Shown piece after piece: positions 2,201-6,598 of a stretch of DNA of 39,288 bases. The stretch covers positions 1 through 39,288 of the forward strand of contig CANLJX010000013.1 of the NCBI GenBank assembly GCA_947491545.1, given 5' to 3'. Source of the DNA: Deltaproteobacteria bacterium (GTDB lineage Bacteria; Bdellovibrionota_C; UBA2361; OMII01). How positions within the stretch are numbered: the stretch's first letter is position 1; each line of letters starts with the position of its first letter. A program made the translations under genes and the position numbers. The notes beneath the pieces are model-generated. The model worked only from the letters and a program-made list of their open reading frames with translations, searched no databases and was not told the DNA's origin.

Positions 2201-2305
2201 TCCCCTGCGGTCGAGAGAAGAGAGATTATCCGGCGGCGGATTATAGGGGTTGAATGAGACCTAGCTGCTTAAGCAGCAAATTGGGAGAAACCGTGTGGGA
2301 TAATG

Positions 2306-2378
<73 letters not shown>

Positions 2379-2470
2379 AAGTACGGGGGATGGTAGCACA
2401 TTGGAGGCGAATTGAAACTGATGTGGTAGTGGGACCAGGTATGCATCCCGCGCTCCGACACACGACACGG

Positions 2471-2601
2471 GAACGGCCACGGCTCCGGATACGGCTCCGG
2501 CCTCGGCTCCGGGAACAAACCTGCAATCCCCGCCCCACCCCAGTGCCAGTGCCGGTGGTGCCGGTGCCGGTGCCGGTGCCGGTGCCGGTGCCGGTGCCGG
2601 T
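2471..2601. repeat. GGNNCC-type GC hexamer repeat, locus B: GGCTCC-rich arm (2471-2515) and (GGTGCC)7 arm (2557-2598)
   Basis: Seven perfect GGTGCC units at 2557-2598; three CGGCTCC units upstream in a second arm. Confidence 0.9.
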
Positions 2602-2670
2602 TAGAGTCTATTTGAACCCTGCTGGGAACAGATCCCTCGAACGAGGGAGGAGAAAACGAGGGAAGAGAAT

Positions 2671-2753
2671 TGGTGAGAGAGGGATTCGAACCCCCGTAGG
2701 CCGGAGCCAGCAGATTTACAGTCTGCCCCCTTTAGCCACTCGGGCACCTCACC
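2671..2753 (-). tRNA. tRNA-Tyr(GTA)
   Basis: 83-nt class II tRNA with long variable arm; anticodon stem-loop CAGACTGTAAATCTG; discriminator A. Confidence 0.96.
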
Positions 2754-2796
2754 AGATGAGTGGATTGAAACGCGAGCCCCCAGTAACTCCCCGGGT

Positions 2797-2815
2797 GCAG
2801 GGGCAAAACCCCTGC
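2797..2815. repeat. GC-rich hairpin A1 (GCAGGGG-caaaa-CCCCTGC)
   Basis: Perfect 7-bp inverted repeat; related hairpin A2 at 2957-2975. Confidence 0.85.
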
Positions 2816-2820
2816 CCATC

Positions 2821-3010
2821 ATTCGAATCTTGGCAAAGCCAAGTTCGAATAGAAGCAACACCGTCATGCAAATCTTGGCAAAGCCAAGTTTGCATAGAAG
2901 CAACACCGTCATGCAAATCTTGGCAAAGCCAAGTTTGCATAGGAGCTCTCCTGAGTGCAGGGGCAGCGCCCCTGCCCGTCATGCAAATCTTGGCAAAGCC
3001 AAGTTTGCAT
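2821..3010. repeat. Tandem hairpin array: four 30-nt imperfect palindromes (H1 2821-2850, H2 2866-2895, H3 2911-2940, H4 2981-3010) with interposed hairpin A2 (2957-2975)
   Basis: H2-H4: ATGCAAATCTTGGCAAAGCCAAGTTTGCAT; H1: ATTCGAATCTTGGCAAAGCCAAGTTCGAAT. 45-nt period for H1-H3. A2 = GCAGGGGC-agc-GCCCCTGC. Confidence 0.95.
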
Positions 3011-3021
3011 AGGAGCTAAAC

Positions 3022-3094
<73 letters not shown>

Positions 3095-3243
3095 GTAACA
3101 GTCACGTTCAACGGGCCGCATTATGTTCAATTAGGGGGATCAAGTAAATACACTAGGGACTTACCACCCTTAGTAATTGAAATTTCGGCCAAGCTTTTAT
3201 AACCTGAGGGTGTTAGCGGGTTTGCGTTCGCAGGGCCCCCTTT

Positions 3244-3316
3244 GCTGGCATAGCTCAATTGGTAGAGCAACTGATTTGTAATCAGTAGGTTCCCCGTTCA
3301 AGTCGGGGTGTCAGCT
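3244..3316 (+). tRNA. tRNA-Thr(TGT)
   Basis: GCTGGCA/TGTCAGC acceptor, D-arm TAGCTCAATTGGTAGAGCA, anticodon loop TTTGTAA, CCCCGTTCAAGTCGGGG T-arm. Confidence 0.97.
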
Positions 3317-3469
3317 TTCATTCTTCCCTCCCCGTGCGTGGGCCAACTGCTCTGAAATCATCCTGGGTTAAACCGTGGGCGCCCCGGCAACTTCAAGGCA
3401 GCCAGCCTCAGTGTTTCTGTCTCTAGCAACCTGAAGAGCGCTTGAGAGATTGTGCTCCGTTGATCTCGC

Positions 3470-3919
3470 GTGATTGAATACTGTCCACCAATGGGCACAC
3501 AACCTCCCTCGCACGACGCGCTCAATGTTCCCTCGCACGACGCGCTCAATGTTCCCTCGCACGACGCGCTCAATGCCGCACTCGCGTTCATCCCAATCTT
3601 CGAGGAAGGCGTGTTTGAGAATGCTTCCTCCGTCTACATAACGACCGGCGAGTACCCACTGCACGTCAAAGAGCTCCTCTCTCTCCTTACCGCGCTTGAG
3701 ATTCAACCAGACGGTTTCGACTGGATGTCGTGGATCGATCAGGCTCGACCGTACCTGCAAGACCCGAAGAAGATCTCGGAAGCCGACGCAGAGGCGGTGT
3801 CACGGCTCACTGCGCTAGCGGTTCAGTCGGACCGATTCAACAAAAGTCTCTTTCCGCACCTTTGCTCATCAGGGGTGCTGCATCAGCTCCTGCTCAGGCT
3901 CCGTACGCTCTGCGCGTAA
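3470..3919 (+). CDS. DUF6508-like protein with N-terminal PSHDALNV octapeptide repeats
   Basis: ORF 149 aa; ALAFIPIFEEG...FDWMSWIDQARPYLQDPKKISEADAEAVSRLTALAVQSDRF...GVLHQLLLRL resembles DUF6508. True start may be the internal ATG at MGTQ. Confidence 0.6.
   Translation: MIEYCPPMGTQPPSHDALNVPSHDALNVPSHDALNAALAFIPIFEEGVFENASSVYITTGEYPLHVKELLSLLTALEIQPDGFDWMSWIDQARPYLQDPKKISEADAEAVSRLTALAVQSDRFNKSLFPHLCSSGVLHQLLLRLRTLCA
3506..3577 (+). repeat. 24-bp tandem repeat, 3 copies, in frame
   Basis: CCCTCGCACGACGCGCTCAATGTT at 3506-3529 and 3530-3553; third copy 3554-3577 ends ..AATGCC. Confidence 0.97.
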
Positions 3920-5095: not shown

Positions 5096-6598
5096 TTAGC
5101 CGTCTGACTCGGCTGCATCCTTTATGACGAAGCGAGGCTTGAGCCTCGCAACAACCGACGCCAGGCCCGCCAACTCAACAGACCTCAACACCTCGCAAAA
5201 ATCCTTGTAGGCCGCAGGCGCCTCGTCGAGCGGGTACGCTCGGCAGTTGCTTAGCACGTCTAGCTTGTCAAGCTCTGCATCGACAGCCGCCTGGTCCAGT
5301 GCCTTGAACGCCGCCCGCCTCCCCATTGCTCGACCGGCACCATGATTGACGCTGTAGCAGCTCATTCGAGCCCCCTCTTCCGCCACCATTACCACCGAAC
5401 CGTCTCGCGGATTCCCCGGAAGCAGGATCGGATGCCCCACTCCCTCAAAGGGAGAGCCGCGTAGCGCCGGATGTCCTGCAGGAAATGCGCGCGTTGCGCC
5501 CTTGCGGTGCACCCACATCTCTAGCCCTCCGACCTCTTCGCGACGAGCGATGTTGTGGCTGATGAAGTAGACGAGCCTTCCCGTTGTCCCCGGAATCACT
5601 TCACGAAACGCATCAAGCACGAGCGCATTAATCAGCATGTGGTTGACAGTGGCGAAGTTTGCGCCGAGAGCCATGTCATCCAGGTAGTCGTTCGCCTCTG
5701 CTGAGCCGAGCGGCGCGTACACAAGCTCTCGGTCGTTCCCGGGAAGCGGGATGTTCCACTGCTCGAAGTGACGCTGCAGGAGCTGAAACTGGTTGCGTGC
5801 GAGGATATTTCCGAGACCTCGCGATCCGCAGTGCGAGAGGAAGGCAACGTGACCATCCTCGAGCCCGAAGTGCGCGGCTACATCCCTAGCGCGCGCCGAA
5901 TCCTCAATAGCAACTGTGCTGCACTCACCGAAGTGGTTCCCGCCGCCGTACGAGCCGAGCTGGCTGCACTTCTCCGCAAAGTTTCTGATCACACCAGCTT
6001 TGAGGAGCGCCACAATTCGGTGCCTTAGCGCCGCCTGAGTGCCATCGTGCCCCACGTGGTGAGCGTCCTCGCACCGACTCGCCCACTCGACTGGGATGCC
6101 GAGCTCACGCAGCACGGCCTCAGAGGCGCCCTCGGTCAGCGCCTGCATACCAAGCTCCTCGGACACCTCGCGGCCCATCGCCACAGCACGTGCCCCCTTC
6201 CCGGGGCCGGTGGGTATGCGCTTGCAGATAGCATCGATGATCGCTCGACGGATTGGGCGAGCAGAGATTGCGTCTGCCGGCAGGTCGAGCTGCAGAAGGC
6301 TCATCGAGCACTTGATGTCCACTCCGATTGGGCCTGGGTAGATGTGAGTGGGCGATGCGAGCACACACCCAATCGGAGCGCCATAGCCAGCGTGGGCGTC
6401 GGGCTGAAGCACGAGCTCGGCCACTCCGGGAGCGGCGCGAGTAGTGAGCGCCTGTTTGAGACAGGTCGGGTCGAATCCCCGTCGGATCTCCGGCGTGCCG
6501 ATCACTACCACGGGCTTGCACTGGGAGCCTGGAACTGGAAGGAGCGCGACGGCCTCGCCTTTGGGGACAAACTGATGCTCGGCTTCGTTAGTATTCAT
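5096..6598 (-). CDS. rtcB: RtcB family RNA ligase
   Basis: 500 aa; LQPDAHAGYGAPIGCVLA, GVDIKCS, GGGNHFGE, SHCGSRGLG, ISHNIARRE, VNHGAGRAMGRRAA motifs. Confidence 0.9.
   Translation of the reverse strand: MNTNEAEHQFVPKGEAVALLPVPGSQCKPVVVIGTPEIRRGFDPTCLKQALTTRAAPGVAELVLQPDAHAGYGAPIGCVLASPTHIYPGPIGVDIKCSMSLLQLDLPADAISARPIRRAIIDAICKRIPTGPGKGARAVAMGREVSEELGMQALTEGASEAVLRELGIPVEWASRCEDAHHVGHDGTQAALRHRIVALLKAGVIRNFAEKCSQLGSYGGGNHFGECSTVAIEDSARARDVAAHFGLEDGHVAFLSHCGSRGLGNILARNQFQLLQRHFEQWNIPLPGNDRELVYAPLGSAEANDYLDDMALGANFATVNHMLINALVLDAFREVIPGTTGRLVYFISHNIARREEVGGLEMWVHRKGATRAFPAGHPALRGSPFEGVGHPILLPGNPRDGSVVMVAEEGARMSCYSVNHGAGRAMGRRAAFKALDQAAVDAELDKLDVLSNCRAYPLDEAPAAYKDFCEVLRSVELAGLASVVARLKPRFVIKDAAESDG

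Follow-up and report, generated by a model that had tools for sequence, protein, structure and literature searches.

The window, that is, the whole 39,288-nucleotide stretch of DNA analysed here, contains a tandem array of hairpins between two minus-strand tRNA genes, tRNA-Thr(ggt) at 3022-3094 and tRNA-Tyr(gta) at 2670-2754. The original prediction had placed the array between two tRNA genes of the same strand, and every element that it described was recovered: four 30-nt hairpins at 2821-2850, 2866-2895, 2911-2940 and 2981-3010, all built on the core CTTGGC-AAA-GCCAAG; an unpaired T in each (2828, 2873, 2918 and 2988), which is an unpaired A on the tRNA strand; and two GCAGGGG/CCCCTGC hairpins at 2797-2815 and 2957-2975. 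The first hairpin in window order (H1) differs from the other three (H2-H4) by two bases in each arm, and both pairs are kept (T-A to G-C and G-C to A-T).

What is the repeating unit? The individual hairpins stand as predicted, but their layout does not: hairpin A and a variable GC-rich hairpin B that follows it make up one double-hairpin unit, whose reading direction is that of the tRNA genes. Hairpin A has 13 bp, a 3-nt loop, a conserved bulged A and the flanks TTCCTA and TGACGG, and on the tRNA strand the unit reads TCCTATGCAAACTTGGC-TTT-GCCAAG-A-TTTGCATGACGG plus the GC-rich hairpin B. The array begins 5 nt past the 3′ end of tRNA-Thr, read on the minus strand, with hairpin A of copy 1 (GCTCCTATGCAAACTTGGCTTTGCCAAGATTTGCATGACGG; 2976-3016, minus strand; 63.3 bits with our covariance model, R1), and hairpin B of this copy, GCAGGGGC-GCT-GCCCCTGC on the minus strand, was found by pattern match at 2957-2975. 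Folded as single-stranded DNA, one A+B unit reaches -24.2 kcal/mol as compared with -11.2 kcal/mol for shuffled sequences (z = -6.0, dinucleotide shuffles). Hairpin A of copy 2 (2906-2946, 63.3 bits) and of copy 3 (2861-2901, 60.5 bits, at a spacing of 45 nt) follow on the same strand, and hairpin B is absent both between copies 2 and 3 and between copies 3 and 4. Copy 4 (2816-2856, minus strand, 58.5 bits) is the H1 of the original prediction, with its two compensated pairs, and has a hairpin B, GCAGGGG-TTTTG-CCCCTGC on the minus strand, at 2797-2815 (pattern match with one mismatch). The next gene downstream, tRNA-Tyr, carries no unit on its own 3′ side.

A search of the window against Rfam returned only tRNAs above the gathering score and no other RNA family, and a search for intrinsic terminators over 2250-3450 gave 0 matches and no U-tract; we therefore rejected both a known Rfam RNA family and an intrinsic terminator. 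Beside the tRNA cluster, at 2543-2601 and 3505-3575, lie a GTGCCG hexamer run and three perfect 24-bp tandem repeats, and an RtcB RNA ligase gene lies two kb from the cluster (5096-6598).

Copies behind tRNA and tmRNA genes

In the draft genome to which the window belongs (G000; 3.03 Mb) we counted 31 exact matches to the core CTTGGCNNNGCCAAG and 2 to a reversed control pattern. Given this excess and the z of -6.0 for the folded unit, the array in the window is not a product of chance. In the exact-core arrays the core lies 18-24 nt behind a tRNA gene, or else the array sits at a contig end and shares its unit with an array so placed; the tRNAs concerned are Gly, Gly, Met, Thr, Lys, Ser, Ser, Ile and His. 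Altered but still paired cores are found behind further tRNA genes, for example CCTGCC/GGCAGG (Lys), CTTTGC/GCAAAG (Asn), CCTGGC/GCCAGG (Glu) and CCCGC/GCGGG (Phe), and about two thirds of the tRNA genes in this genome have no unit. Across 17 family members from G000, 94.1% of cells are paired, nine of the 13 pairs show two-sided changes, and no pair shows a one-sided standard change. In paired percentage, two-sided counts and covariation score alike, every shuffled alignment falls short of these copies, and slides fall far off. These counts bear out the suggestion that either selection acts on the folded form or a copying mechanism preserves it.

A covariance model built from the 17 copies, which may miss distant relatives, matched 4-40 copies in every one of the 12 genomes of this uncultured genus and a few copies in three other families of the order. 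This distribution throughout the genus favours the REP-like element among the roles first suggested for the array; copies recur well beyond the window, and their pairing holds. Two of the three other families have one copy each, behind tmRNA, and in the third (G025) an array is divided between two contig ends, next to lexA on one and next to recA on the other, and the fetched sequence contains no tRNA gene. The unit of these two contig-end arrays (L179 and L180) is 68 nt long and belongs to the same family as the hairpin A unit. The model, possibly too specific, found no match in 17 genomes of other orders of the phylum. Named records with the motif are metagenome-assembled genomes (MAGs) labelled Deltaproteobacteria, Proteobacteria or Oligoflexia. 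An origin in phages or plasmids was rejected, as phage and plasmid collections gave no match and a 20-base pattern had no exact match in viral contigs.

Locations were counted over 77 fetched arrays, including one from a named MAG, with ARAGORN ends taken as gene ends; the sequences come from draft MAGs, in which several arrays stand at the end of a contig. The first 41-nt copy lies no more than 30 nt, and nearly always 1-11 nt, after a tRNA gene in 58 of the 77. Of the rest, four lie 79-178 nt behind a tRNA gene, three are associated with tmRNA and two with fragments of tRNA genes, seven are truncated at a contig end, and the last three are not near any tRNA. Thus, once the truncated arrays are set aside, about 67 of some 70 are located at a tRNA gene, at tmRNA or at a fragment of one of these. 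The orientation is the same (sense) in all arrays behind complete tRNA genes, the isoacceptors occupied vary between species, and the exceptional sites are inside tmRNA (twice), beside tRNA-Asp, nested in the element's own loop, or at lexA/recA.

Several other repeats and fragments were noted in G000. Hairpins of another family, unrelated to the first, with CTCGGCnnTnnnGCCnAGGG ahead of GC-rich hairpins, occur at C165:3900-4017, C193:3610-3715, C154:5952-6057, C19:9826-9924 and C99:1647-1736, directly behind the tRNA genes Thr, Cys, Ala and Ala; the C154 copy has the unit of the Cys array, and relatives of this family lie behind tmRNA in other genomes. An orphan tRNA-Met fragment, the 3′ half, carries a unit at C9:13617 (L123 2018-2058); it lies 18 kb from the intact tRNA-Met (C9:31909-31982), which has no unit, and looks like the displaced tRNA end of an integrated island. 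The 3′ ends of tRNA-Met and tRNA-Leu are repeated behind their genes with other short sequences (L044 3560-3805, L065 830-1003), and an interspersed repeat containing CTTCTCTTCCTCCTGCACTTGCACTG follows closely behind several arrays (L025 1105-1250, L044 800-900, L070 700-900).

Pairing, and signs of insertion and of exchange between loci

Is the pairing of hairpin A maintained in DNA or in RNA? G.U pairs are tolerated in RNA helices, and selection on a folded transcript would be expected to leave them in excess. Among 96 distinct copies of hairpin A (1248 pair cells), 1179 cells are Watson-Crick, 14 are G.T (1.1%) and 23 are A.C (1.8%), whereas, for 69 distinct tRNAs taken from these loci, the acceptor and T stems together gave 78 G.T (9.4%) and 4 A.C (0.5%) among 828 cells. 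Because G.T is no commoner than A.C, the comparison argues that the pairing is kept not by RNA-level selection on either strand but in a DNA hairpin. The bulged A is retained in 93 of the 96 copies and the flanks are also conserved although neither is paired; conservation of this kind suggests that a protein recognises them. With tRNA stems from these loci as calibration, the ratio of G.T to A.C mismatches offers a simple test of whether pairing is maintained at the DNA or the RNA level.

A number of loci suggest how units may have come to lie where they are. For example, genome G009 has a unit in the tmRNA 5′ region between 37-bp direct copies of that region, and G005 has two tandem units in the same region flanked by 29-bp direct copies; in six other genomes of the genus whose tmRNA gene could be read, the 5′ region lacks an insertion of this kind. 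Similarly, two units in G008 lie between a 31-bp copy of the tRNA-Asp 5′ half, which comes first, and a complete tRNA-Asp gene, and the repeated unit behind tRNA-Gly in the named MAG includes 25 bp from the 3′ end of that tRNA. Behind tmRNA in G006, G013 and G016 a degenerate tmRNA 3′ end comes after the unit, and the same unit together with this end is found behind tRNA-Ala in G008. Hairpins are also nested: L147 1-260 (G008 C253) has four to five layers, each in the loop of the previous one, and the outer layer has its own matched variant, GCGAAC/ATTCGC, as compared with GCAAAC/ATTTGC in the inner ones.

Units are shared between loci as well. The Thr and Ile arrays of G000 contain a nearly identical unit, and the spacers of the Ile array carry what appears to be the tRNA-Thr 3′ end motif, CATGG-CTGTTT. 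Counted over 41 positions, copies differ by 3.0 within an array, by 10.4 at the same tRNA in different genomes, by 12.1 at different tRNAs of one genome and by 12.2 in unrelated pairs; most sites therefore appear to be old and inherited, with arrays homogenised locally and movement between loci probably occasional. A recent genome-wide burst was rejected as the general rule, since within one genome copies at different tRNAs resemble each other no more than random pairs do. The genome-specific core CTTGGG/CCCAAG at three G009 loci fits occasional spread.

Origin of the arrays and comparison with known systems

We propose, as the most probable reading though by no means a secure one, that the array is a non-autonomous, REP-like two-hairpin element of about 65-80 bp with the 3′ ends of tRNA and tmRNA genes as its target. 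The element would first insert at the gene end and then multiply on site as direct tandem copies. Hairpin A, whose TGACGG flank is a CGTC tag on the other strand, would be the conserved recognition part, kept perfectly Watson-Crick because it acts as folded single-stranded DNA and read in that form by an enzyme presumably encoded elsewhere; no enzyme gene was found next to the element. Insertion would sometimes duplicate 25-37 bp of the target, so that a full RNA gene survives. We infer mobility from the arrangement of the copies, and the divergence values weigh somewhat against it, as copies at the same tRNA in different species (10.4) are slightly closer than copies at different tRNAs within a genome (12.1).

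A history without transposition is unlikely, although it is the strongest of the alternatives. It holds that old trailer palindromes were duplicated in tandem, that their arms were equalised by replication template switching (quasi-palindrome correction) and that gene conversion acted between tRNA loci. Copies differing by 3/41 within arrays and otherwise unrelated within a genome agree with this history, as do the equal rarity of G.T and A.C and the tRNA 3′ ends inside units, which tandem duplication would be expected to produce. However, palindrome correction alone would not keep the bulged A and the unpaired flanks, and the account leaves aside the tmRNA and tRNA-Asp insertions with target duplications, the nested copies and the lexA/recA arrays of another family, where the fetched sequence contains no tRNA gene. 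Arrays as such could arise through tandem duplication and template switching; nested copies and spread from locus to locus are not readily accounted for in this way.

The fixed distance and orientation behind tRNA genes and the strong covariation would also suit a functional pre-tRNA trailer, an RNA hairpin directing the 3′ processing, stability or termination of tRNA transcripts. This seems improbable: G.U is not in excess over A.C, as it is in tRNA stems, most tRNA genes of the genome lack the unit, isoacceptor occupancy differs between species, the region has neither a U-tract nor a terminator match, and the unit also lies inside tmRNA and at lexA-recA. The same observations leave two roles suggested at the outset, a tRNA-precursor processing signal and a structured small RNA, without support. 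That the units are residual att sites of tyrosine-recombinase islands at tRNA/tmRNA 3′ ends is very unlikely, for although degenerate tmRNA 3′ ends lie on the far side of the tmRNA units and the orphan tRNA-Met half carries a unit 18 kb from the intact gene, some 70 bp repeated up to five times without genes does not resemble islands that carry kilobases and integrase genes, and the conserved part is the hairpins and not the tRNA core.

Short palindromic repeats are known in many bacteria; for the CGTC type we know of neither an enzyme nor a target rule. If the array is a mobile two-hairpin element, the target rule in this lineage is plain (tRNA and tmRNA ends, one orientation, a fixed distance), and the visible target duplications, nested copies and shared units make the movement of such repeats testable. 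More tentatively, and with the odds slightly against us, we suggest an undescribed class of bacterial mini-elements in which a folded DNA hairpin inserts at tRNA/tmRNA genes with a 25-37 bp duplication that saves the gene and then forms arrays, tandem or nested; within one genome, two or more unrelated families would share the tRNA-end habitat.

How does the element compare with known systems? A literature search on repeats behind tRNA genes found nothing matching. RtT repeats (Rfam RF00391) lie in tandem behind E. coli tyrT and include tRNA 3′ end sequence; they are not, to our knowledge, a covarying hairpin family, and they differ from the present element in having a longer unit and one locus, nor is there an Rfam match here. 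Integron attC sites carry the boxes R″ (RYYYAAC) and R′ (GTTRRRY); GTTRRRY is missing at the expected place from the consensus of the 96 copies, and an attC site was rejected. The double-hairpin and repetitive hairpin-forming elements of fungal and sponge mitochondria are described as small repeats that invade RNA genes and intergenic regions (PMC2800124). They too form single or double hairpins whose related copies differ by complementary substitutions, and they differ in belonging to an organelle and, in the description consulted, in having no tRNA-end targeting; the likeness is one of description.

Like the GTAG REPs of the RAYT system (REPtrons, REPINs), the element is a non-autonomous hairpin, probably read as single-stranded DNA, but it has no GTAG tag and forms direct arrays instead of inverted pairs. 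The suggested search for a RAYT transposase found Y1 transposase genes in 11 of the 12 genus genomes, where the proteins are of two types, one of 326-368 aa and one shorter; none of the six Y1_Tnp loci of G000 (L071-L076) has a hairpin A (model R1) within the 1-2 kb examined, and inspection of inverted repeats at four of the six revealed no REP, so a RAYT association was rejected.

The closest resemblance is to the CGTC-tagged REP superfamily, which includes the Rickettsia RPE repeats and has stems of 8-9 bp, loops of 4-5 nt and the tail CCA, with head-to-head dimers predominating and clusters rare (Di Nocera et al. 2013, PMC3733652). As in that superfamily, an unpaired CGTC stands at one foot of the palindrome (CCGTC on the plus strand; GACG at positions 37-40 in most of the 96 copies, 81-86/96 per position), complementary A-T pairs occupy stem positions 1 (A-T in 83/96) and 2 (T-A in 81/96), and no dedicated transposase lies nearby. 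In contrast, the element has a 13-bp bulged stem, a 3-nt loop, the tail AGG and a second hairpin in the unit, and it forms direct tandem arrays of one orientation, not head-to-head dimers, almost only behind tRNA/tmRNA genes. Because the tag and the A-T foot fit while stem, loop, tail and arrangement differ, we regard the element, on its sequence features, as REP-like and as a probable variant rather than a member of the CGTC-tagged superfamily.
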